DNA of 29,555 nt from a virus: positions 1 through 29,555 of the IMG/VR virus record IMGVR_UViG_3300046809_000252; one strand, given 5' to 3'. Position numbers and translations under genes: made by a program. Below are positions 3,054-29,188 of this stretch, in pieces (positions within the stretch are counted from its first letter, which is position 1; each line of letters begins with the position of its first letter). The notes below the pieces were generated by a model, which saw only the letters and a program-made list of their open reading frames with translations, ran no database searches and was not told the DNA's origin.

Positions 3054-3446
3054 TTATTCTCCAATCGCCCAGGCGGCGTCATCATACCCAGGCAGGCAAC
3101 CCGCCAGGCTTCCGGCCAGGTTTTCGCACCAATCGCGGACAGGGCTGGCCTTCCACCCCTCATGCTCGCAGCTTTGATACACGTAGCAGTTGATCGCTTT
3201 CAGGGCTTCGACCGTGGACAGGTGGCGGACGGGTTCCAGGACATAGGGCTTTTCGGGAACCTCTCCGGCTCGGGACCCGTACCGCGTTCGGACGCTTGTG
3301 ACGTTTTCGGCAATCATGGCCGCGCCGATATCGCCATCGAAGCGGATGGGATACCACCCCATGCGGGAGGCGTCATTCTTGGGGCCGTGCTGGGCGACGA
3401 AAACCAGGGCGTCAATATGGGCCTTCGGGACGATGAACGCGCTCAC
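3054..3446 (-). CDS. Conserved phage protein of unknown function (130 aa)
   Basis: It starts at GTG 3446, inside a GTGA overlap with the stop of the 509-aa gene, so its translation is coupled to that gene; no leader motif is present. It begins MSAFIVPKAHIDALV. Further in are NVTSVRTRY and LSTVEALKAINCYVYQSCEHEGW. The start and the 'LS-VEALKAI-CY-YQSCEH-GW' element are a pattern I know from many phage and prophage proteins of unknown function. No catalytic motif is evident. It shares an operon and probably a regulatory fate with the clamp-like protein. Confidence 0.75.
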   Translation of the reverse strand: MSAFIVPKAHIDALVFVAQHGPKNDASRMGWYPIRFDGDIGAAMIAENVTSVRTRYGSRAGEVPEKPYVLEPVRHLSTVEALKAINCYVYQSCEHEGWKASPVRDWCENLAGSLAGCLPGYDDAAWAIGE

Positions 3447-4972
3447 AGGGCACCGCCTTCGGTGCCGTCTGTATGCTTCCGGAAAAGTTTCACGACATAA
3501 TCCCCCAGGAGCAGATGGCGGGTTTTTTCCACGAACTGCCGATAATGGCGACCGGCATGGTACCGCAGCGCGTCCGCAGCGGTCTCGAATTCCAGCATCA
3601 TCACGACCATATAGCCGCCCATTTCGGTCAGGGCTTCGCCTCGGACGATGGCACCGGCCAGGCCGCGAATATGTTCGAGCATGGCGCGAACGACATCCCG
3701 CGCTTGGGTTTCCGATACCGTTTCGCCGATGAGCATCCGCGTGCAGCGCGGTTCCGGCACCCCAGGGCCGGACGGCCCCAGGGGTTCCGGCTTTGCCGGT
3801 GGCGGCACCGGCACCGGCTCGGGTTCGGTGGCCGCGATGGTGGCCGGTTCCTTGGAAACTATTGCGTCCCGCCCGCTATTCCATTGCGCGGACGTGAAAG
3901 CATCGCCGCACGAACCGATCAAGCGCCCGTCTTTGGTGCGGGTTTCTTTTAGGGTTACCGTGTCGCCACAAATCGGGCACAAGTCCGATTCAACCGCCTC
4001 GGGTTCCGGCTCGGGGAAAAAGTCCGCAAGGTTCAGCGGCACCGGCTCGGGTTCGGCCTCGGGTTCCAGTGCGGCGTCCGCGCGCCCAGGGGTTACCCCG
4101 TCCCAGGTACGGGACAGGTCCACCCCGTCCCACTTGTCGCCCAGCGGCATTACAACGTACCGAAAGGAAAGATCGTCCGCTTCGAACACGATGGCGTTGG
4201 TGTCACCGGCATACCACACGGTCAGGGGCCAAGCGCCGCACATCGGCTCCAGGAACTCGGGATTGATTGCAACGTGCCAGGGTTCCCAGCTTGTGACCGG
4301 CAAGGTTTCTTCGAAATCACCGGCATCATTGCCAGCGGTTTGCCGGACGGGTTCGCCATGCTCGGACGTTATCCGCAATTCGCCAGGGTTGCCGATGAGA
4401 CGAACCCGAGGCGCGCGTTCGTCCACCATGAGCGCGGCGCGCTTCAACGCCAGGTGAAACTCGGGATTGTCGAGTAACCCCACCTTGCGCGCGGCACCGG
4501 CCCATATATCCAGGATCGGGGTTCGTGTGCCCACGCCAGCGCCAGGTTTCAACAGGGCGGTTTTCCCATCGGTCGAAACAATTTCCCACCCGTCCAGGCA
4601 CGGGGTTCCATTGTACCGGCCAAAATTTGCGCGCGCGTTTTTCAGCATCCGTTTCTGGATACTGTCTTTGATACGTTCGAACGCCTTCGAGAATCCAGTG
4701 GCCCCAGGGGTTTCGATTCGCGGTTTCAGCGCGGGCATTTTGAAAGGTTTCGAACCCGGTGCGGCATATTTCAGGCAGTTCGGATTCGAATAGGTGACGG
4801 TCCCATCGCGCTGGATTCGAAGGAACGAACCCGACGACGTTTTCCGTCCAGGTTCCCAGGTGTATCCAGGGCCGGTGTATCGGACGGGGTTGCCGTTATG
4901 ATCGGTCGCGGGTTTCGCGGGCGGAATTGCCAGGGCGGTTTCGATTTCGATTTCGTCAATTGTTGTGCTCAT
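3443..4972 (-). CDS. 509-aa multidomain protein with a DnaN (sliding clamp)-like segment
   Basis: The ATG at 4972 follows a complete leader copy. Residues 1-110 are of unknown fold. Residues 119-142 include CLDGWEIVSTDGKTALL, reminiscent of the 'ATDGHRLA' strand of DnaN domain II. Residues 171-277 run EFHLALKRAALMVDERAPRV, then GELRITSE, then FEETLPV, then HVAINPEFLEPM, then RYVVMPLGD. These match, in order and spacing, the third domain of bacterial beta clamps (in E. coli: RAAILSNEKFRGVRLY, LKITANN, AEEILDV, IGFNVSYVLDVL, YVVMPMRL). Residues 302-330 are a Pro/Glu linker containing PLNLADFF, similar to a clamp-binding (PIP-type) peptide. CPICG...C (332-355) is a possible zinc knuckle. A second Pro-rich linker leads to a helical C-terminal domain (418-499). 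The clamp reading is inference, and the full three-domain length is not evident. The role could be polymerase access, clamp mimicry or clamp inhibition. Confidence 0.6.
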   Translation of the reverse strand: MSTTIDEIEIETALAIPPAKPATDHNGNPVRYTGPGYTWEPGRKTSSGSFLRIQRDGTVTYSNPNCLKYAAPGSKPFKMPALKPRIETPGATGFSKAFERIKDSIQKRMLKNARANFGRYNGTPCLDGWEIVSTDGKTALLKPGAGVGTRTPILDIWAGAARKVGLLDNPEFHLALKRAALMVDERAPRVRLIGNPGELRITSEHGEPVRQTAGNDAGDFEETLPVTSWEPWHVAINPEFLEPMCGAWPLTVWYAGDTNAIVFEADDLSFRYVVMPLGDKWDGVDLSRTWDGVTPGRADAALEPEAEPEPVPLNLADFFPEPEPEAVESDLCPICGDTVTLKETRTKDGRLIGSCGDAFTSAQWNSGRDAIVSKEPATIAATEPEPVPVPPPAKPEPLGPSGPGVPEPRCTRMLIGETVSETQARDVVRAMLEHIRGLAGAIVRGEALTEMGGYMVVMMLEFETAADALRYHAGRHYRQFVEKTRHLLLGDYVVKLFRKHTDGTEGGAL

Positions 4973-5267: not shown

Positions 5268-5296
5268 AATATAGGCTAGCCGTTGGGTTATGTCAA
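5268..5296 (-). promoter_or_regulatory. Leftward sigma70-type promoter, copy 1
   Basis: On the minus strand TTGACA (5291-5296) is followed by a 17-bp spacer and TATATT (5268-5273), close to the sigma70 consensus. The spacer contains the 8-bp palindrome GGCTAGCC. The same promoter with an identical spacer recurs at 7433-7461. The start point should be near 5261, about 35 nt before the 61-aa gene. Confidence 0.85.
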
Positions 5297-5298
5297 TG
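5268..5298 (-). repeat. 31-bp promoter repeat, copy 1
   Basis: Identical over 31 bp to 7433-7463. It covers both promoter hexamers, the whole spacer with its GGCTAGCC palindrome, and two bases upstream of the -35. Identity of the non-hexamer bases suggests they are also recognised, for example by a regulator. Confidence 0.85.
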
Positions 5299-5333: not shown

Positions 5334-6146
5334 CTAATCGTAATCGGGCCGGTCCTCGGTGCCGTCTCGGTCCTCGGTCACACGACCGGCTTTCAAGATA
5401 GTGTCGGCGGCGTGGAAAATCTTTTGTGCCGAACGCTCGGGTATTTCGCCGCCCCAGTTCTGGATATACCCGCGACAAAATTCCGCCCCAGGCAACCCGA
5501 GCGATTCCAGGCAAAGTAGCGCCACCGATTCCGCTTCGATTTCTTTCAAATTGCGCGGGGTTGCTTCGGTATCGTTGAAAGCGGTTTCGGTCGTGTGTCC
5601 CAGGAGTATGTGCCCGAGTTCGTGAAAGGTTGTTTTCGCGGGCAATTCCGCCAGCGGGTTTATCGCGATTTCCCGAGCGCGGGCGTAACCCTGTACGTTG
5701 CCGTTGAGTATCTGGAATTCGGTTTCGGTCACGTCAAGCGCCGCCAGGGCCGTTGTACGATCCCAGGCCGGAACCGCTGGCGGAACATACTCCGCGCCAT
5801 CGGTTTGTCCGAGCGCGAACCAATTTTTTCGATAGATGAAACGGACGAAACGGCGGGTTTCCTTGTCGCCAGCGGCGTTCGTGGTTTCCGCTTTGCGTGT
5901 GACCGGCATACAGAGTTCAATCGCTTTCGAACCCTTTTTGACAAAGCGTCCTTTGTCTTTCCATGCCATGAAAGACGCTATCGGCCCAAGCGGAATTCCG
6001 CGCTCGGACAATTGAAGCATGGCGAGCAATTGGTTTCCCGAACTGTAATTCCAGAACGCGGAGTAGGCGGCGAGCATTTTCCCAGGCGTGCGGACGGCAT
6101 CGGCGAGCAATTCCGCCCATTTTGTGTTTTCGATTTTGGTTTCCAT
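5334..6146 (-). CDS. ArdC-like antirestriction protein: ssDNA-binding domain plus zincin metallopeptidase domain
   Basis: A 270-aa protein starting at ATG 6146, after a full leader copy. Residues 8-110 resemble the ArdC N-terminal (DUF1738) ssDNA-binding domain, with NYSSGNQLLAML and FMAWKDKGRFVKKGSKAIEL, then RFIYRKNWFALGQTDG. The C-terminal half is a zincin with HELGH at residues 175-179 and a likely third ligand in the downstream EIEAES (about residues 202-206). ArdC proteins enter with conjugating plasmids or phage DNA and counter host restriction. The metallopeptidase domain belongs to the MPTase-polyvalent group found in mobile-element effectors. It lies mid-block among small early-type genes and ahead of a promoter repeat, consistent with early expression. 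Confidence 0.88.
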   Translation of the reverse strand: METKIENTKWAELLADAVRTPGKMLAAYSAFWNYSSGNQLLAMLQLSERGIPLGPIASFMAWKDKGRFVKKGSKAIELCMPVTRKAETTNAAGDKETRRFVRFIYRKNWFALGQTDGAEYVPPAVPAWDRTTALAALDVTETEFQILNGNVQGYARAREIAINPLAELPAKTTFHELGHILLGHTTETAFNDTEATPRNLKEIEAESVALLCLESLGLPGAEFCRGYIQNWGGEIPERSAQKIFHAADTILKAGRVTEDRDGTEDRPDYD

Positions 6147-7432: not shown

Positions 7433-7461
7433 AATATAGGCTAGCCGTTGGGTTATGTCAA
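7433..7461 (-). promoter_or_regulatory. Leftward sigma70-type promoter, copy 2
   Basis: On the minus strand TTGACA (7456-7461), a 17-bp spacer identical to that of copy 1 with its GGCTAGCC palindrome, and TATATT (7433-7438). It should start the whole leftward block at about 7426. Confidence 0.87.
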
Positions 7462-7463
7462 TG
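7433..7463 (-). repeat. 31-bp promoter repeat, copy 2
   Basis: Identical to 5268-5298. The surrounding bases differ, so the repeat boundaries coincide with the promoter itself. Confidence 0.85.
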
Positions 7464-9150: not shown

Positions 9151-9441
9151 ATGAAACCCAAGCGCAAAAAGATTCCCTACCTCTGGGTCAGCTTTGCCAA
9201 TGAGGATCACGGCTCTGCCGGTGTGGTTATCATCCGCGCCAGAAATGTGCTCGATGCGGCACGAGCCATCCAGGCGCTCGATATCGCGCCAAAAGATTTC
9301 CACGGCCAGGTCGCGGCGTTCCGCGCGCCCGATGATGTCGATATCCCGGAGGAAGCCACCAACCGGCTGTTGCAGTTGGCCGACGTGAAGCGACTGTTGC
9401 CGCATGTGCCGGTGATGAATTCCAAGGGAGAGCCGCGATGA
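9151..9441 (+). CDS. Hypothetical protein (96 aa)
   Basis: The ATG at 9151 opens with MKPKRKKIPYLWVSFANEDH, a basic start then a predicted beta-alpha-beta domain (GVVIIRARNVLDAARAIQAL). No clear Shine-Dalgarno precedes it. A small CGGAA/TTCCG hairpin (9132-9147) lies just upstream. It ends in an ATGA overlap with the coiled-coil gene. No family recognised. Confidence 0.6.
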   Translation: MKPKRKKIPYLWVSFANEDHGSAGVVIIRARNVLDAARAIQALDIAPKDFHGQVAAFRAPDDVDIPEEATNRLLQLADVKRLLPHVPVMNSKGEPR

Positions 9442-13793: not shown

Positions 13794-15544
13794 GCCGGGA
13801 GATGCCGCAATCGCTATCGCTTCCGGCACGCAAAAAATACATGGCGTCGTATCTGGCCGACCGCGAGCGCGGGCGCAAGGATCTGCTCTGGCTCTGCCGT
13901 GAAGTGTTGGGCTATCGCGACATCCGTGGAGCGGACCCCGGCTGGGAAGACCTGGGTAATATCTCTGCCGGGGAAAACCATCAGCCGTTGCTCGACGGCC
14001 TGCACAAGTTCGCCGGTCGAAAAGAAATCGCCGACTGCGAAGCGATGACGGTGGTTTCCTCCATCGAGCGCGTGGCGATGTACGACCAACTGGAGCCGGA
14101 CGGGAACCGCAATTTCCTCGCCCTATTTCCTCGCGATCATCTCAAAACCAGCATCTGCACCATCGGTCACACGTTGCAGTGGATTTTGAACTATCCCGAC
14201 GTGCGCATCCTGCTTTCATTCTCCTCCGGCGACCACGGCGACCGCATTATGACCGCGATCCTGGGCCACTTCCGATACAACTCGAATTTTCGATTCTGGT
14301 ATCCGGAGTTTTGCCCGCCTGCGAAAAACGCGAAGGACTTCGGGAGTCTGCAATCGTTCATCGTTCCCAACCGCACCCGGCAAATCACCGAACCCACCGT
14401 GATGGCGGTGTCGGTGGGCAAAATGATTGCCGGAACCCACCAGGACGTACACAAACATTCCGACCTTGTGGACAAGGAGAACGTCAAGACTGCCGCAGGT
14501 ATCCGCGAGGTGGTGGACCACTTCAAATACACCGATCCGCTGTTGGCGCGCGTTGCAGGCAAGCAAGGCTGGCGCGATGTCGAGGGCACACCCTACGACT
14601 TTTCCGATCTCTACGGTCACATCCGCGATACCGAATCGAACCTGCCCGAAGCGCAGCGCAGTTGGCGTGTGGTCGAGCGCGGCGCGCAGATCCACGCCGA
14701 GACGGGCAAGACTTTGTGGCCACATCGATACGACTGGGCATCGTTGGAGCGAATCAAGCACCTGGTCGGCCTCTACATCTTCGAGGCCCAGTACAACATG
14801 CGCTGTATTGCACCATCCGGGGGACTGGCCACGCGCGAAGAGATCATGTGGATACCCCGCGCGAGGGTCGCCGAACTGATGCCGCAATACCGGATTCACA
14901 CCACCGTGGATTTGGCCGGAATGGAGGAGAAATCCGACGGCGCGTTTTGCGCGCTGACCACCTGCGGTTTCCTTCCTTCCGGCTACATCCATGTGATCGA
15001 TATCCGGCACGGACACTTCACCCCGTTCCAGGTCATCTGGCATTTCTTCGACATCCACAAGAAGTACCGGCCCAGGGATTTCAAGATGGAGAAGAACCAC
15101 CATGCGCAGGTCATCGAACCGTTTCTGCGGCAGGAGATGGCCAAGCGAAACACGTACCTGAACGTGTTGAACATTCCCCGCGACAACGCGATATCGAAAG
15201 ACAACCGGATTTCGGGATTGCAATCGTGGTTCGCGGCGAAACGGATTCGCATCGTGGACGACCTTGCCTGCGATGGGCATCTCATCATGGAGATCACCCG
15301 TTTCAACAAGTACAAGTACAAGGACATCCTCGACACTCTTGCCGACCAGTTGCAGCACGCCGATGGCGTGGGCATCGAGCCGGACCTATACCCGCGCCAG
15401 AGCGAAGATTCGGGCCGTCCGTGGTTTGAAGAACTGGGCCGCGCGAAATTTCTCGGATTTGATCCGATGTCCAAGCAAGCCATTTTCGGTGGGCAACCCA
15501 CCGAGACCGAAGACAGCTACTACCACGCGAGGACGGGATTGTAA
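13790..15544 (+). CDS. Terminase large subunit
   Basis: A 584-aa packaging motor. ATPase motifs: FPRDHLKTS at residues 113-121 (Walker A variant, Lys119/Thr120) and HSDLVDKENVKT at 223-234 (Walker B region). The nuclease domain shows HTTVDLAGMEEKSDG (Asp374 with KSDG), HVIDIRHG (Asp404), and DILDTLADQLQHA near residue 512-524, the RNase-H-like acidic triad. The arrangement matches terminases of podovirus-like phages, where TerL cuts and pumps DNA through the portal. It overlaps TerS by ATGA and the portal by TAATG. Confidence 0.93.
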   Translation: MSREMPQSLSLPARKKYMASYLADRERGRKDLLWLCREVLGYRDIRGADPGWEDLGNISAGENHQPLLDGLHKFAGRKEIADCEAMTVVSSIERVAMYDQLEPDGNRNFLALFPRDHLKTSICTIGHTLQWILNYPDVRILLSFSSGDHGDRIMTAILGHFRYNSNFRFWYPEFCPPAKNAKDFGSLQSFIVPNRTRQITEPTVMAVSVGKMIAGTHQDVHKHSDLVDKENVKTAAGIREVVDHFKYTDPLLARVAGKQGWRDVEGTPYDFSDLYGHIRDTESNLPEAQRSWRVVERGAQIHAETGKTLWPHRYDWASLERIKHLVGLYIFEAQYNMRCIAPSGGLATREEIMWIPRARVAELMPQYRIHTTVDLAGMEEKSDGAFCALTTCGFLPSGYIHVIDIRHGHFTPFQVIWHFFDIHKKYRPRDFKMEKNHHAQVIEPFLRQEMAKRNTYLNVLNIPRDNAISKDNRISGLQSWFAAKRIRIVDDLACDGHLIMEITRFNKYKYKDILDTLADQLQHADGVGIEPDLYPRQSEDSGRPWFEELGRAKFLGFDPMSKQAIFGGQPTETEDSYYHARTGL

Positions 15545-17556
15545 TGGCCAGCTACGGAACCGCCGCGCTCGACGCCTACGCCCCGCTCACCGAAGCGGAA
15601 GCCGCAAAGATCACCACCACCGAACAGGAGTGGTCCGATAGCTTCGCGTTGAAAATTGTGTGCGACGATTTCTCGCGCGCGGAAAACTATCGCTCGCAAA
15701 ACCACGACTGGCGCTGGCAGAACGCCGACGCGCTCTACCTGGGATACGTCGCGCAAAAGTTTTGGGAAGGCACGAAGATCCCGCGCGCATCGATCCCGGT
15801 ATTCACCGCCTACGAACAAATCGAATCGATGGTGCCGCGTGTGGTCCAGGCATTGTTTGGCGATAACCCGTGGTTTGAAGCATCGCCGATTGGCAAGACC
15901 ACGCCGAAGGCCGCGCGGGTGAGCCGCGACACGATTCTGGCGCAGATGGCCGAGACCCGGATCAAGCGCGTGGTGGAACTGGCGCTGCGCAGCGGTCTCA
16001 CCTACGGCAACGGAATTCTGGAATCGTCCTGGCTCTATCAATCGCAAATGGTGAAAAAGTTCGTGCCACGCTTCCAGCCCCAGCGCCGCCCGATCCAGCA
16101 TCCCATTACCGGCCAGACGTTCTCGGTGCCATCGGGTGGCTTCGACCGCGTCGTGGTGGAAGTGATGGAGGAGGAGTATGTCAACCGGCCCAACGTCGAG
16201 ACCGTCTCGCTGAAGGATTTCTACATCGATCCGAACTGTCCGACATCGGACCCCTCCGACGCGCGCTACACCGTCAAGCGCCTGTTCCTGGATCTGGACT
16301 ATTTGAAATCCCTGCGGGCGCTGGAGGATTTCACGATTCCCGACGATGCGACGTTGACCGAGATGGCGCAGGTGAAGCCATCCACGCAGGGCGACAACAC
16401 CAAGTCCTGGCAGGAGTCCGCGCGCATGGCGAATTGGCAACCGCAGGTGGATCAAACCGCCGATCCCGGTGGCACGCGGGTGGAGGTGTTGATCTACAAG
16501 ACAGACCGGCGAATTGTGTGGGTGGCCAACCGCTCGATGGTGTTCTACAACCGGCCCAACCCCTACGGGCGGAAACTGCAATACAACTTCTGCTACACGG
16601 ATCTGCTGGACCGTTTCTACGGTCTCGCGATCACCGATGTGGTCGAAGGCGAACAGCGATTGCAGGAAGGCGTATTGAATGGGCGTATCGATGAACTGGC
16701 GCTCAACATCCACCCCCAGACCGTGGTGGCCAGGTCCAATACCGAACCTGTCTACAAGCTGCGAGTGCGGCCTGGGGGTGTGACGTATTCCACCGATCCG
16801 AAAAACGACATGCGCCGGGAGTACACGCAGAACGTGACCCAACAGGCGTTCATGGAAACCGCAGCGTCCGACGTGCGCGTGCAGAAAATCACCGGGCAAA
16901 ACGATCTCGTGTCGGGCGCGCAAAATCCGGTGGCGCGATCCGCGACCGGCGCGGGCCTGCAAGGCCAGGCGACATTCAGTCGGTCGCAGTACCAGGTGGA
17001 GAAGGTCGAAGACAACATGCTGGGGCCGATTCTGACCGACGTGCACATGCTCAACCAGCACCACCTGGACCCGAACCAGATGATTGAGGCCGTCGATGGC
17101 CAGATGATCGACCCGATGGAAGTATTCGGCGCGAAGGTGCGATTTGAAATGCGTGCCGGTTCTCGCATGGCGTCCCGTCAAGGACTGCTCCAGGTGCTGC
17201 CCTACATCATGCAGTACGCGATGAACCCGCAATTGAATTCGCAGCTGGCCGACCAGGGCAAGACGCTCGACTACGAGGAAATTTTCCAGATGCTGCTGGA
17301 TTCCACCGGCTACAAGAAAAAGGCCACCTGGATTCGCGACATGACCCCGCAGGAACAGCAGGCGCTCCAGGCCGCGCGCCAGAATCCGCAAAACGCCGAA
17401 CTCCAGAAACAGCGCGAGCGCATGGCGCAGATGGCCACGATGCAGCAGAACAAGGGCGAACTGGATCTGACCAAGGTGGCCATCCAGGCGCGCTCCGACG
17501 AGAAGATTGCATTGCTGGATGCGAAAACAAAACTGGAGACCAGCGGCAGTGATTGA
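15544..17556 (+). CDS. Portal protein
   Basis: 670 aa, the usual size for portals of N4-like and related short-tailed phages. It lies directly after TerL. The N-terminal half (YVAQKFWEGTKIPRASIPVF, then TAYEQIESMVPRVVQALFG) and GLTYGNGILESSW are typical of large portal subunits. The C-terminal region is long, Gln/Ala-rich and helical (PQEQQALQAARQNPQNAELQ), matching the barrel and crown. Portals form the dodecameric DNA-entry ring. The identification relies on size, order and pattern. Confidence 0.85.
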   Translation: MASYGTAALDAYAPLTEAEAAKITTTEQEWSDSFALKIVCDDFSRAENYRSQNHDWRWQNADALYLGYVAQKFWEGTKIPRASIPVFTAYEQIESMVPRVVQALFGDNPWFEASPIGKTTPKAARVSRDTILAQMAETRIKRVVELALRSGLTYGNGILESSWLYQSQMVKKFVPRFQPQRRPIQHPITGQTFSVPSGGFDRVVVEVMEEEYVNRPNVETVSLKDFYIDPNCPTSDPSDARYTVKRLFLDLDYLKSLRALEDFTIPDDATLTEMAQVKPSTQGDNTKSWQESARMANWQPQVDQTADPGGTRVEVLIYKTDRRIVWVANRSMVFYNRPNPYGRKLQYNFCYTDLLDRFYGLAITDVVEGEQRLQEGVLNGRIDELALNIHPQTVVARSNTEPVYKLRVRPGGVTYSTDPKNDMRREYTQNVTQQAFMETAASDVRVQKITGQNDLVSGAQNPVARSATGAGLQGQATFSRSQYQVEKVEDNMLGPILTDVHMLNQHHLDPNQMIEAVDGQMIDPMEVFGAKVRFEMRAGSRMASRQGLLQVLPYIMQYAMNPQLNSQLADQGKTLDYEEIFQMLLDSTGYKKKATWIRDMTPQEQQALQAARQNPQNAELQKQRERMAQMATMQQNKGELDLTKVAIQARSDEKIALLDAKTKLETSGSD

Positions 17557-21639: not shown

Positions 21640-22383
21640 ATGGCATCGACCTACAAGATTTCCGACGCGATCACCTACGCGCAGGCGATTTGTGTAGGGA
21701 TGCCCGTGGCCGCGATCCAGCTTGCCGCCGCCGACATGGTGAACGCCATCATCTGGAATGCGTACCCGTGGCAGTGGGCGCGAAAGAACGCACCGGCCAT
21801 TCCACTCATCGACGGACAGCAGGACTATTCGTTCGCGACGGTCGCCGACTACATGCGGCTGTTGAAGGCCACGTTGGTGCGAACCAGCACCACGCCCAAT
21901 GCCTACGAAGAACTCACCGTTGTTCGCAATCTCGCGCAGGATCTCACGAAGGCCGGGTTTCGCTCCGGTCTGTCCCAGGTCGCCTATGACGGCACCACGG
22001 GCGGGCCGATCCTGCGATTGAACCAGGCCGCTGCGGTTCCTGCGGGGAATGTCGTCGCGCTGGTGCCGCAGTACCAGTTCCAGCCGGTGAAAATTACAGC
22101 GGTCACCGCGACGATGGTGTTCCCCGACCAGTATTTTATGGTGTTTTGCGCGGGCCTGCTTTGGCAGTTCTATCTGCTGGCGAAGGACGGTCGCGCCGGT
22201 ACCGCGCAGGCCACCAAAACCGGATCGATGGTCTACACCGGCCAGATGGGGATCTTCTACGACGAATTGATTTCGATGCGCGAGGCCGAAGACTACGGCG
22301 GCGGCGATACCTTGCACCCGTCCGAACCTATCGGCATCGGCGGGCCGGGCACATGGATTGGTGCCGGAATCTATGGGCCATAA
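21640..22383 (+). CDS. Putative head-tail connector or tail protein
   Basis: A 247-aa protein, starting at ATG 21640. It has QAICVGMPVAAIQLAAADMV near the N-terminus and a hydrophobic central stretch (YFMVFCAGLLWQFYLLAKDG). Together with the next gene it occupies the place of head-completion/tail connector proteins in short-tailed phages. There is no diagnostic motif, so the role is inferred from order. Confidence 0.6.
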   Translation: MASTYKISDAITYAQAICVGMPVAAIQLAAADMVNAIIWNAYPWQWARKNAPAIPLIDGQQDYSFATVADYMRLLKATLVRTSTTPNAYEELTVVRNLAQDLTKAGFRSGLSQVAYDGTTGGPILRLNQAAAVPAGNVVALVPQYQFQPVKITAVTATMVFPDQYFMVFCAGLLWQFYLLAKDGRAGTAQATKTGSMVYTGQMGIFYDELISMREAEDYGGGDTLHPSEPIGIGGPGTWIGAGIYGP

Positions 22384-22386
22384 CCG

Positions 22387-24228
22387 ATGCCATCCGAGAA
22401 CGACAAGTTCAATCACGCCCGCATCGAAAACACGGCGCTGCCCTATATTTCCAACGCCTCGATTGTGGAAGCGCGTCCGCACTGGGTTCCGGGATCGCAT
22501 GACACCCTCGCGTCGATTCGCGGATGGACGGAACGCCGACCGGGATTTGCGCTCTACGAAGGCGGCGTCAGCTATGGTAGTTCGAACGCGGTGCGGTTCT
22601 TCTCCTGGCAGCGGTGGGATGGATCGTTCTATGTGATGATGTCGGTCACCGATGTCGGCGCGAACACGTCGAAAGTCTACAAACAGAAAATCGGAACCGA
22701 TGCGACCTTCCAGCTACTCTTGACCGACGCCACCACGTCGGAGGCGTTCGACTATGTCGAAGCCAACAATTTCATTTTCTTCGGCAACGGCAACCTCATG
22801 CGGAAGTACGACGGCACCACCGTCACCAACTGGGGTATCAATCCGCAACCCGCATCGGTGGCCACGCTGGTCAATACCGCTGCCGGGAATGTCCCCAATA
22901 GTATCGGCCACCGATATATCTATACCTATGGCGTGAGCGGAACCGGATACCTGTCCGACGTGTCCGATCCTTCGCTGGTGACCACGCCAGGTGTCACGCT
23001 GCGGCAATGGACGGTGAGTGGTCCGTTCTGCGCCGACACGCAGTGCAATCAGATCCACATCTACCGCACCGAAGACGGTGGATCGGTGTATCTGGAATTG
23101 CCGAATTCTCCAATCGCGAACCCCGGCTCCGGCACCTGGTCGATCATCGACAACGCGGCAGATTCCGCATTGCAGCAGGCATTCCCCGCGCCATTCCCTG
23201 GTGTGAACGATCCACCGATTCCGATGCTGGGCTTTCGGTTCTTTGCCGGGCGCATCTGGGGATTCAAGGGCGATACAGTGTACTTCTCCACCTACGAGGA
23301 AAACACCACGTCGGTCGCGGAGGAGTGCTTCGGCCAACCGCGCACCAACTCGCGTGCCTTCGGATCGCAGGTGTTCGGCATTGCCAAGACGCCGGAATTC
23401 CTGCTGGTGTTCACCACACGCGGCATCTATCGCATTGGCGGGGACTCGCTCAACACGTTTGCCTACTCGCAGCTGTCGCACAACATGGGTGTCCGCAACC
23501 GCGCCACCATTGCGGAATTCGATGACAAGGTGGCATGGTTTGATATGTCCGACACCATCCAGATCACGGATGGAAACGCCATCGCGAAAGACGATCTGTC
23601 CCTGGCGATTCGCCCCGATATTGAAAACGTCCCGCATCCTTCGGCGCGCATGGCCGTGTATGCGGTCGGCAAATACAAGTGGCTCATGTTTGCCGATGGA
23701 CAGACCAACCGCGTTTGGGTCTACGACTTGTCGTTGAACCAATGGAACCCGGCCTGGACGCAGATCATCAGCGGTATCGGCTCGGTGCAGACTGCTGCGG
23801 GTGTGTTCAAGCTGCTGGCCGGTGTCTTCAATGGAACCAATATCGAAGTCCGCGTGGTGGATCACACGACGTTTGCCGATGCCGGGGTCCCGTATGCGCC
23901 GGAGTCGCGATTGAATCTGGTCCAGGTGAACCGCGACAACCCGACCTCGGTGGGCGTGCTCGAATACGTTGGCGTCGAACGTAACAATGTCGCGCTGTCG
24001 GATGTGGGGATGCTCACCGATGAAGATTTCACGACCGGCATCTATACCAGCATTTTCGCCAACGAAACCGAACCGGCCAACCGCACCAACGGTGTGAACC
24101 TGGTGGAGAAATGGTATTGGGCCAACACGCCATCGGCACAGCGTGTGTCGGTCAGTCTGAAATGGGCAGCGGTGAATTCGAAGTTCATCCTCTACGTGCT
24201 CGATGTGATCTCGCGGAAGGTGAACTGA
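22387..24228 (+). CDS. Large beta-rich virion protein, probable tail or DNA-stabilisation protein
   Basis: A 613-aa protein of repeating beta-strand units (GFRFFAGRIWGFKGDTVYFS, LLVFTTRGIYRIGGDS, YAVGKYKWLMFADGQTNRVW). The W/G-rich strand repeats suggest a beta-propeller, as in the packaged-DNA stabilisation (gp10-type) and tail proteins of podoviruses. It overlaps the tail fibre start by TGATG. The function is inferred from fold pattern and position. Confidence 0.65.
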   Translation: MPSENDKFNHARIENTALPYISNASIVEARPHWVPGSHDTLASIRGWTERRPGFALYEGGVSYGSSNAVRFFSWQRWDGSFYVMMSVTDVGANTSKVYKQKIGTDATFQLLLTDATTSEAFDYVEANNFIFFGNGNLMRKYDGTTVTNWGINPQPASVATLVNTAAGNVPNSIGHRYIYTYGVSGTGYLSDVSDPSLVTTPGVTLRQWTVSGPFCADTQCNQIHIYRTEDGGSVYLELPNSPIANPGSGTWSIIDNAADSALQQAFPAPFPGVNDPPIPMLGFRFFAGRIWGFKGDTVYFSTYEENTTSVAEECFGQPRTNSRAFGSQVFGIAKTPEFLLVFTTRGIYRIGGDSLNTFAYSQLSHNMGVRNRATIAEFDDKVAWFDMSDTIQITDGNAIAKDDLSLAIRPDIENVPHPSARMAVYAVGKYKWLMFADGQTNRVWVYDLSLNQWNPAWTQIISGIGSVQTAAGVFKLLAGVFNGTNIEVRVVDHTTFADAGVPYAPESRLNLVQVNRDNPTSVGVLEYVGVERNNVALSDVGMLTDEDFTTGIYTSIFANETEPANRTNGVNLVEKWYWANTPSAQRVSVSLKWAAVNSKFILYVLDVISRKVN

Positions 24229-26162
24229 TGGACATTTTCGCGCCCGATATCGGATTCGAAAAGAGCAATGCCAGCAGCGTGCTGGTCAATCAAAACATCC
24301 CCGGCACCACCATCGGCTCCACCAACAACTACATCTACGACGCCAATGGTGTGGCGCGAAATCCGCAGGCGCAGGGTCTGGCCACCAGTCTTGGCCAGGG
24401 CGCGGTGGCCCCATTTCCAGGCGGTGTATCGCTGGGCACATCTGCCGGTGCGCTGGCCAACGGCTGCACCGCTGTCGGATACCATGCGCTGGCGAAGATA
24501 TTTTCCGGGACAGCCCTGGGCGACCAGGCGCAATCGCTGGCCTACCGTGGAATTGCCATCGGGCGCTGCGCTGTTGTGACTCCGACTGGATTGAACGGGA
24601 TTGCCATCGGATCGCTGTCCAGCGTCTCCGGTGCAAACGGAATCGCGATGGGCAACGGGGCCGTATCGAGCGGGGACAGTTCCATCAGTTTTGGCAACAA
24701 AGTGCAGGCGTCCGGGGCGCAATCGATTTGCATCGGAACCTCCAGCGTGGCCAGCGGATCGCAGGATGTCGTCATCGGATATCTCAATTCCGTCTCCGGC
24801 TTCAATGTGATCGCCATCGGCAACGGTATCCAGACCGCGCAGAACAATTGCGTCCTGTTGGGCAAGGGTGCCATCCCGGCTGCGCCGAATAGTTTCGTTG
24901 CCGGTGCGCCGGGATTGTTCCAGCAGGGGCCGATATTGGATGTGTTCTTCGGCCAGGGTCCGCGAGTGTTTCTGGCTGGCGGAACCGTGATGGGTTCCTA
25001 CACCATCCACGGCGAGGAGGCCGGTGGTGGCGCGACGGGTGGCGCGAATACGAATCTGAATCGTGCGGGTGGAAACCTCAATCTCGCAGGTGGCAGAAGC
25101 ACCGGATCTGGCGTCGGCGGCAGCGTCAACATTCAGGTGTGCGGTTCGTTTGGCAGCAATGAAACGCTGAACTCGCTGGCCACCGCCCTGTCGGTCGCGC
25201 CTGGACCCACCATCACCATGTCGGCCACAACGATAGTGAATGGACCGCTCACCGTGAACAACATCGGCGGCAGTGTCAATCTGCACATCACTGGCCCTGT
25301 CGGTACAAACCGTGCGATTTACTTCGAGACGGCTGGTGTCATTCGTTGGCAGATGACAGCAGAATCATCGCCAGAATCGGGCGGCAACGTGGGATCTGCC
25401 TTTGGGCTGTATGCCTACGGTGATGGCGGGGGATTTATCGACAACCCGATCTTGATCGCCCGTCCTGCCGGTGGGACGATCACCGTCACCCGTCCAGTCG
25501 TTGTTGCCGCTGCCGCTGGTGCGGACCCCATCCTCTACATGTCCGGTGTCCCAGGAAGGAATCGGCTCGTCTACGGCCTCAGTTCGGGCGTGCCTCGTTG
25601 GGCAATGGTACTCGGAAATAGCACGCCGGAATCGGGAGGCGACAACGGCTCCGACTTCCAGTTGTTTGCCTACACCGACGCGGGGGCGCAAATTGATCCG
25701 GTGATGGGAGTCGTCCGCAAGGCTTTCGGTGCGATATTTTTCAATCGCGGTGTGAACATCACCGGGAATCTGAATGTCAGCGGGACAATCACTGGCGGTG
25801 CTTCCGCCGCGTCGTCTGGCACCTACACGCCGGGATTTGCCGATGCTGGCAACGCCGCCAGCGCGGTCGCAAATGCCCCGTTCACATGGATGCGGATTGG
25901 GAATGTCGTTCACGTCGCTGGGAATGCCACTGTCGCTCCCATCACTCCCGGAGTGCCATTTTCGATGTATGTGACGCTCCCGATTGCCAGCAATCTCGTC
26001 AGTCTTGGCGATCTGGCTGGAGTGATGGCGTTCGGCGGTGCCAGCGCCAACTTTGCTGGCGGCGTGTACGCGCATCCCGCCAGTGACAGAGCGCAGTGCT
26101 ATTCGTACATGGGTACGGGGGGCGACAACGCCGCAATCTCATTTTCCTATATCGTGCAGTAG
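24228..26162 (+). CDS. Tail fibre with YadA-like head repeats
   Basis: 644 aa starting at ATG 24228 (the frame extends upstream to 24111, but the TGATG overlap favours this start). Residues 67-212 form eleven left-handed beta-roll repeats with a 14-residue period ending in (I/V/L)xG (VSLG, TAVG, TALG, IAIG, IAIG, IAMG, ISFG, ICIG, VVIG, IAIG, VLLG; one spacing is 16). This is the pattern of YadA/Hia trimeric autotransporter heads. Two tandem modules follow (about 351-424 and 436-509; NRAIYFETAGVIRWQM and NRLVYGLSSGVPRWAM, each with ESGG-NGS-F-L-AY-D-G). A C-terminal receptor-binding-type domain ends the protein (YTPGFADAGN..., FTWMRIGNVVHVAGN). It should form a trimer contacting the host surface. 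Confidence 0.85.
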   Translation: MDIFAPDIGFEKSNASSVLVNQNIPGTTIGSTNNYIYDANGVARNPQAQGLATSLGQGAVAPFPGGVSLGTSAGALANGCTAVGYHALAKIFSGTALGDQAQSLAYRGIAIGRCAVVTPTGLNGIAIGSLSSVSGANGIAMGNGAVSSGDSSISFGNKVQASGAQSICIGTSSVASGSQDVVIGYLNSVSGFNVIAIGNGIQTAQNNCVLLGKGAIPAAPNSFVAGAPGLFQQGPILDVFFGQGPRVFLAGGTVMGSYTIHGEEAGGGATGGANTNLNRAGGNLNLAGGRSTGSGVGGSVNIQVCGSFGSNETLNSLATALSVAPGPTITMSATTIVNGPLTVNNIGGSVNLHITGPVGTNRAIYFETAGVIRWQMTAESSPESGGNVGSAFGLYAYGDGGGFIDNPILIARPAGGTITVTRPVVVAAAAGADPILYMSGVPGRNRLVYGLSSGVPRWAMVLGNSTPESGGDNGSDFQLFAYTDAGAQIDPVMGVVRKAFGAIFFNRGVNITGNLNVSGTITGGASAASSGTYTPGFADAGNAASAVANAPFTWMRIGNVVHVAGNATVAPITPGVPFSMYVTLPIASNLVSLGDLAGVMAFGGASANFAGGVYAHPASDRAQCYSYMGTGGDNAAISFSYIVQ

Positions 26163-26175
26163 TTTTGGAGGTTCC

Positions 26176-26379
26176 GTGGATTTGAAAATGTCCGATTACG
26201 ATTACGAATTGTTTTTGCTCGTGCATGGCGCATTCCGCAAGGCCGATGCGCTGGTGATGGAGTTTCTCAATCGCACCGCGACCGCAGCCGGGATTGATCC
26301 CAAGACGCATCGGTTCAACATCGAGACGCGATGCTTTGAGCCGATACCGGAGGCACCGCCGCCAGCAACAGTCGAATAG
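26176..26379 (+). CDS. Small protein after the tail fibre (67 aa)
   Basis: GTG 26176 follows GGAGG at good spacing. The product (MDLKMSDYDYELFLLVHGAF ... ALVMEFLNRTATAAGIDPKT) is largely helical and ends Pro-rich. It may be a fibre chaperone or assembly factor, a common neighbour of fibre genes, but nothing specific supports this. Confidence 0.6.
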   Translation: MDLKMSDYDYELFLLVHGAFRKADALVMEFLNRTATAAGIDPKTHRFNIETRCFEPIPEAPPPATVE

Positions 26380-26394
26380 TTTTGGCTCGATTCG

Positions 26395-27835: not shown

Positions 27836-29188
27836 ATGGACCAACTCGATACACTCATACAGCAACTCGGGCAGCAGCGCGCGGGCATCCAGTCTCCGGC
27901 GATTTCACCCATTGCGTCGTTGGACTTCGGTGCCAACGGTCCACCACCGGACCCGGTGCCGCTGCCGCCCGAGGATTTCATTGTCTCCCCGGACCCGAAC
28001 AATCCACGCACGCCCGACCAGCGCATGGAAGGGTTTCGGCGAATGCTCACGAACTTCACATTCGACCTGGGAAGTGGACTGTCCGCAGCCAGCGCCAATC
28101 CTCGCGGTCGCACGCTACGCACCGAGGCGGGCATGGGCGCGATTTTGCAGATGCCGAAAAACCTGCAAGACCAGCAGCAGGCATTCGGGGAACGGCAGGC
28201 CGCGCAGAAACTGGCAAGGCAAAAAGCCATCATCGAGGCAATCCAGAACCAAAACCAGGGCGACTACCAGGCCGGTGTGTTGCAGAACCAGCAAGACACA
28301 CTGGCACAGTCGAGGATTCGAGATGCGGAAACCGAACGGAAAGATCGCGCACAGGAAGCCCAGAAGCTCGGCTCGGACGAAGCCACACTCCGCAAGGCCG
28401 GACTCCAACGAGACGCCGATGGGAAAATCGTCAAGGTGGACCGCGCCGATCTCACGCCAAAGGAACTGGCCGATCTCAACGACAAAGAGGCGCTGACCGA
28501 CTATCGCGACAAGCAGCAGGAACTGGCCGACGCCACCATTGCATGGCGCAAGTTCCAATCCGATCCGAACAACCCGCAATATCAACTCGCGAAGGATCGA
28601 CTCGACAATGCGCGGCGCAACACCGCTGTCGCGGAAAAACGTCTCGGTGTTTCCCAGCAGCGCCTGGATTTGAGTGAGGACATTTTCAAAGCGGGACAGT
28701 TCGGCGGATTCGCCAAAGCCCAGGTGTTCCTCGATAGCGTTTCCGAACTCGCCGACAAGATCAACACCAGCAATGGAGTTTGGGCGAAGGCGAAAGGGTC
28801 CGAGCGCGAGCAGGCTGCGAAACTCAACCTGGACGATGATGTGGCCGAGTACGACTCCCTCGTGGAAGCGTTCACACCGCTATGGGCGCGGGCGCTCGGA
28901 CACAGCGGGGTACTGACCCAACAGGATGTGGATAGCGCCAGGGCGGCGTTGCCGAAGGCCGGGGACAGCAAGACCTTGAAGGATCGGAAAATTGCGCGCA
29001 TCCAAAAGATCATGGCGGGCGAAATGAAGGCCACCGAGGCGGTGACCGGCCAGGAGAATCCAACAGGACCAGCGAAGGCCGCGCCGACGCCGGGTGCTAC
29101 CGGAAAGACGACGGCCCCCAAGGGAGTCGCCCAGGAAGACTGGAACGCAATGACTGACGCGGAGAGGGCGCTATGGCCGAAGAACTGA
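27836..29188 (+). CDS. Putative internal virion (ejection) protein 2
   Basis: The ATG at 27836 directly follows the previous stop (TAG ATG). The 450-aa product is mainly coiled-coil/helical (QAAQKLARQKAIIEAIQNQN, then DKEALTDYRDKQQELADATI), with a Pro/Ala/Lys-rich tail. It overlaps the next gene by 16 nt. Such proteins sit inside the capsid and enter the host with the DNA in N4/T7-like phages; no motif confirms it. Confidence 0.65.
   Translation: MDQLDTLIQQLGQQRAGIQSPAISPIASLDFGANGPPPDPVPLPPEDFIVSPDPNNPRTPDQRMEGFRRMLTNFTFDLGSGLSAASANPRGRTLRTEAGMGAILQMPKNLQDQQQAFGERQAAQKLARQKAIIEAIQNQNQGDYQAGVLQNQQDTLAQSRIRDAETERKDRAQEAQKLGSDEATLRKAGLQRDADGKIVKVDRADLTPKELADLNDKEALTDYRDKQQELADATIAWRKFQSDPNNPQYQLAKDRLDNARRNTAVAEKRLGVSQQRLDLSEDIFKAGQFGGFAKAQVFLDSVSELADKINTSNGVWAKAKGSEREQAAKLNLDDDVAEYDSLVEAFTPLWARALGHSGVLTQQDVDSARAALPKAGDSKTLKDRKIARIQKIMAGEMKATEAVTGQENPTGPAKAAPTPGATGKTTAPKGVAQEDWNAMTDAERALWPKN

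Follow-up and report, generated by a model that had tools for sequence, protein, structure and literature searches.

The window (the whole stretch of DNA analysed here, a virus record of 29,555 bases) encodes a terminase, an SU10-type portal protein and a capsid protein, and its Pfam and PHROG matches give the gene order terminase, SU10-type portal, capsid, adaptor-like protein, connector-like protein and fibre (Table 1). The portal protein matches PF23899, an SU10-type family, at E 9.5e-26, and the adaptor-like protein matches PF24175 weakly (E 7.9e-4, 20.4 bits versus a cut-off of 27). Judging from this gene content, the source is a tailed phage whose portal is of the SU10 type, seen in this analysis in virus contigs only. 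The fibre gene, an ORF lying where an earlier note on this sequence had placed it, runs from an ATG at 24228 to a stop codon at 26160-26162. Its ATG shares one base with the stop codon of the upstream gene (TGATG), and a GGAAGG-type ribosome site lies 5' of its start. The 613-aa protein encoded upstream had no match among phage records; we would guess that it possibly acts as a propeller nozzle.

Table 1. Positions of the tail-fibre gene, its parts and associated phage genes within the window
Feature	Position	Strand	Size or basis
SU10-type portal protein	15544..17556	+	Pfam PF23899 and PHROG
SU10-type adaptor-like protein	21640..22383	+	match below Pfam cut-off
Upstream 613-aa tail/connector protein	22387..24228	+	weak head-closure Hc3 and Kelch matches
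Tail-fibre gene	24228..26162	+	644-aa ORF
N-terminal part, residues 1-47	24228..24368	+	46/47 identical in G001
YadA-type beta-roll, residues 48-233	24369..24926	+	PF05658, periodicity, AF2 monomer, structural matches
Gly-rich conserved segment, residues 237-322	24936..25193	+	86/86 identical in G001
Diverged distal half, residues 323-644	25194..26159	+	164/321 aligned residues identical to G001
Tandem module 1, residues 352-424	25281..25499	+	akin to phage tail proteins, Bd3182 beta-helix
Tandem module 2, residues 436-509	25533..25754	+	45% identical to module 1
C-terminal region, residues 525-644	25800..26159	+	no convincing Pfam or PDB match

The YadA-type repeats and their predicted fold

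The first half of the fibre protein carries twelve h-x-h-G motifs, starting at residues 53, 67, 81, 95, 109, 125, 139, 153, 167, 181, 195 and 209, which are spaced by 14 residues save for one 16-residue step and whose repeats fill residues 53-222. A loose motif expression also matches at residues 239 and 253; these are out of step and were left out of the count. The earlier note had described eleven 14-residue repeats matching a YadA-type beta-roll, of which the repeats and the match both stand, while their number is twelve rather than eleven. Across residues 45-232, a lag of 14 is the best of all lags from 5 to 44, with a reduced-alphabet match of 0.42 compared with a mean of 0.195 (sd 0.029) for shuffles at the same lag, and none of 2000 shuffles attains this value at any lag in this range.

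The same region accounts for the sole Pfam family matched in the whole fibre at E values up to 1, namely YadA_head (PF05658; E 3.9e-8, 33.9 bits versus a gathering score of 25), which reaches 43.5 bits against the head region alone. None of nine shuffled heads matches this family, and three of the nine match some other family at E 0.08 or worse. A search with YadA-head profiles was among the checks suggested by the earlier note, and its outcome agrees with the proposed assignment. Further matches come from phmmer searches of the PDB, which return BpaC (E 3.2e-7), YadA (1p9h, E 6.4e-6) and other adhesin heads. The head alone also weakly matches a grass ice-binding beta-roll family (E 0.0026, below the cut-off), so the repeat profile by itself cannot fix ancestry.

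An AF2 monomer of the head (residues 48-233) has a pLDDT of 96.1 and a pTM of 0.89. Its alignment was built from 26 of 37 candidate sequences from viral contigs, which were chosen by the repeat motif, and the model is therefore not independent of that motif, whereas the sequence matches are. Foldseek places BpaC at the top of the matches to this model (TMq 0.85, E 3.2e-6), and the best 10 rows of a VIA-align search against the PDB are all trimeric-autotransporter heads (Z 17.0-23.6), followed by CsgA (Z 15.9), an ice-binding protein (14.5) and phage phi29 gp12 (13.0). Among the matches listed from a viral structure library, 9 of 50 are named YadA, and 6 of these 9 come from tailed phages. The full-length AF2 model, made from two sequences, exhibits regularly spaced short strands at residues 125-189; with a pLDDT of 34.9 it was set aside for claims about fold, and the trusted fold is thus limited to residues 48-233. 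The sequence profile and the predicted monomer together support a YadA-type beta-roll fold for the repeats. The earlier note had held that a predicted structure lacking the beta-roll would speak against its proposal, and the monomer model does contain one; superposition suggests that it is left-handed.

Parts of the fibre around the repeats

From its position, the N-terminal part (residues 1-47) is presumed to attach the fibre to the virion. The segment around residues 236-331, beyond the beta-roll, had no match among phage records. It is followed by two tandem modules, as the earlier note had recognised, which are identical at 33 of 74 positions (E 5e-17). This region links the protein to annotated phage tail fibre and spike proteins, both through phrog_29706 (tail spike, E 4.3e-13) and through phage records: 20 of the 22 matching records (some of them duplicates) match the module region, with 12 of the 20 annotated as tail fibre or minor tail protein and the others lacking such a name. 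Module 1 also aligns to PDB 8ojn, the tip of the Bdellovibrio fibre Bd3182 (E 1.5e-4), as does the module 2 region (residues 438-520) in a full-length search (E 0.0012). Bd3182 is described as a mosaic adhesive trimer related to phage adhesins, whose tip, a trimeric beta-helix, has a cleft on its surface that is likened to O-antigen binding phage proteins (PMC10769870). However, as described in that source, Bd3182 is bacterial and belongs to an S74-terminating group, whereas the phage fibre here has no S74 peptidase match in Pfam. The C-terminal region is presumed to be a tip or receptor-binding domain. Its last 120 residues yield two weak matches among phage records (E 6e-3 and 1e-2) and, in the PDB, a single chain at E 0.82, with no relative of known function in either collection.

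A sister phage with a different second half

Over 19.8 kb, the window is 98.2% identical to the phage G001 (43,947 bases), and two further stretches align above 99%. When the comparison is divided into 76 segments of 300 bases, the median identity is 0.99 and six segments fall below 0.90. Four of these six are consecutive and cover the tip half of the fibre gene and the DNA past its end (25194-26393), while the remaining ones start at 9294 and, for the short last segment, at 28194. Within the fibre, residues 1-322, beta-roll included, are identical to G001 at 320 of 322 positions (99.4%) with 31 synonymous codon differences, and residues 48-236 at 188 of 189 with 14 such differences. In contrast, residues 323-644 share only 51% of their aligned residues with G001, at a nucleotide identity of 0.59, and the divergence, which includes indels and 84 synonymous codon differences, spans about 1 kb; a comparison of C-terminal domains among related phages had been suggested by the earlier note, and these values come from one pair. 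The boundary between the two halves is abrupt and the flanking genes are conserved, the 613-aa upstream protein being 99.8% and a 460-aa downstream protein 98.5% identical. Another relative, G002, matches the window at 99.98% identity along 5,881 bases; being almost the same sequence, it adds nothing on this boundary, which is thus that of one phage pair.

Directly 3' of the fibre gene lies a small ORF (26176-26379, 67 aa from a GTG), for which Pfam and PHROG searches gave no match; it is possibly a fibre chaperone, which is a guess. Over three successive 100-base segments from 26140, the DNA identity between the window and G001 is 0.79, 0.98 and 0.64.

The fibre is modular, since its first half is retained in G001 while the second half there differs greatly. 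This pattern of conservation suggests purifying selection on the first half and, as the most likely cause of the different tip, replacement through recombination, which we infer from a single pair of phages. Situated in the conserved, probably virion-proximal half, the beta-roll looks like a shaft rather than a binding head. Of the modular receptor-binding design put forward in the earlier note, the modularity consequently holds up.

Based upon these features, we consider it quite probable that the gene encodes a homotrimeric tail fibre of a phage with an SU10-type portal, consisting of a conserved beta-roll shaft and a host-binding tip that is exchanged by recombination. From the virion outwards, such a fibre would comprise an N-terminal attachment part sitting on the tail, a rigid YadA-type beta-roll, the Gly-rich segment, two beta-helical modules and a C-terminal tip. 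Everything before residue 323 would form the conserved shaft, whereas the tip half would meet and bind the host and would be replaced by recombination between close phages. A broader proposal, which we regard as possible and advance tentatively, is that a constant YadA-type shaft receives whole receptor-binding tips, the junction being fixed near residue 323, with the beta-roll serving as a spacer here and as a binding head in bacteria. Two phages that are about 98% identical over 20 kb and have a common YadA-type shaft but a different fibre tip constitute a natural comparison, which indicates the part that probably determines host specificity and suggests that a YadA-type beta-roll can serve as a structural spacer. 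The general picture of phage fibres and adhesins is unchanged by this gene.

Receptor-binding parts usually vary most. The near identity of residues 48-236 to G001 (188/189, versus 51% in the second half) consequently argues against the beta-roll being the adhesive part, as it is in YadA, with the C-terminal half acting as a cap or a trimerisation/folding element. We consider this alternative unlikely, even though host binding by YadA-type heads occurs in bacterial adhesins and CbpF-CEACAM complexes are found among the structural matches of the head model. It would also be consistent with the YadA domain of a pelagiphage tail fibre, which is C-terminal and lies in the variable, presumed host-recognition end (PMC3909814). 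As that fibre is described, the two proteins have a YadA-like domain in common, but the arrangement is opposite, the domain here being in the conserved half. For a conserved shaft with an exchanged tip, it is also relevant how the tip came to differ. Divergence through a diversity-generating retroelement or fast point mutation instead of DNA replacement would fit the distal location of the diverged part, but it is very improbable, since such retroelements change a short variable repeat at template adenines, unlike the roughly 1 kb of divergence with indels and numerous synonymous differences observed here, and a PF00078 reverse transcriptase is found in 0 of 3 records, which may be fragments.

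Bacterial adhesins and other viruses

The best sequence and solved-structure matches of the fibre are bacterial adhesin heads, and like the YadA-type heads (PF05658; YadA, BpaC, BoaA and CbpF) it combines 14-residue repeats with a predicted beta-roll. Despite this, it is highly improbable that the gene is a recently captured trimeric autotransporter gene, or that the contig contains bacterial DNA here. This is supported by several observations: 1) Pfam detects neither YadA_anchor (PF03895) nor YadA_stalk (PF05662, the coiled stalk) in the fibre at E values up to 1, 2) by hydropathy, the first 45 residues contain no hydrophobic stretch (peak 11-residue mean 0.53), 3) the upstream phage genes are common to G001 and G002 and the downstream DNA is common to G001, and 4) the three bacterial genome matches, from a search meant for close relatives, are 30-33% identical. 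The whole-protein autotransporter models EmaA and Ata of NCBIfam reach 19 bits each, versus cut-offs of 3000 and 2500, and match the head region only. Furthermore, the beta-roll sits between an N-terminus belonging to a phage gene and phage fibre modules, and by these sequence features the fibre is not a trimeric autotransporter.

The viral contigs with YadA-type repeats number at least some dozens. When viral-contig DNA was scanned with a strict pattern of three repeats (spacing 31 N), at least 120 stretches matched, and among the matches listed (n = 120) all include an open frame that matches in frame, with 80 of the frames closed; viral contigs may contain bacterial DNA, and some of these stretches are simple repeats (L067, L097). 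From these, 55 frames with at least three adjacent motif pairs and a length of 250-1600 aa were scanned together with this fibre (P0001). YadA_head is matched at E values up to 0.001 in 50 of the 56 proteins, this fibre included, compared with one protein for YadA_anchor and four for YadA_stalk. Taken together with the 30-33% bacterial identity, this spread means that the gene displays a shared fold and gives no direction or date. The exchange between adhesins and phage fibres suggested by the earlier note is hence unsupported as an event in this gene, and recent exchange with bacterial adhesins is likewise not supported by the sequence; the repeats are too short and divergent to settle a direction.

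Searches reaching close relatives, made with the whole fibre, its distal part, a C-terminal alignment and the upstream protein, found no viral relatives beyond G001 and G002, and a whole-fibre alignment, using two N-terminal peptide patterns, found none in genome contigs. The two records of the phage collection matched by the head bear the name Salmonella enterica and are probably bacterial.

The phage PhiEco32 is a relative of SU10. It is listed among other phages with a YadA domain protein in a report on cyanophage S-SZBM1, in which a YadA domain-containing structural protein was found by LC-MS (PMC9146016). The S-SZBM1 protein is likewise a phage structural protein, and its likeness to the present fibre is one of description, apart from domain order or sequence. 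Pelagimyophage structural proteins are also described as including YadA domains (PMC7029224). Since YadA-type phage proteins have already been reported in these sources (PMC3909814, PMC7029224, PMC9146016) and the viral contigs supply further matches, the fibre is a clear further example rather than something new.

Several other features of the window were encountered as well. Along residues 1-145, the gene at 27836-29188 shares 93% identity with G001, and it has no tblastn match beyond them, which points to a second mosaic boundary. The ends of G001 (5694-5811 in the window) overlap by 118 bases, 4 of which are mismatched, and the genome may therefore be circular or circularly permuted, at about 43.8 kb. 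On the minus strand, 5334-6146 encodes an ArdC-type anti-restriction protein (PF08401 ArdcN above the cut-off, Peptidase_M78 just below it, and phrog_7245, anti-restriction), and 3443-4972 has a weak match, below the cut-off, to the C-terminal domain of the DNA polymerase III beta subunit. Lastly, an identical 31-base repeat is located at 5268-5298 and 7433-7463, and G001 has both copies at matching places.
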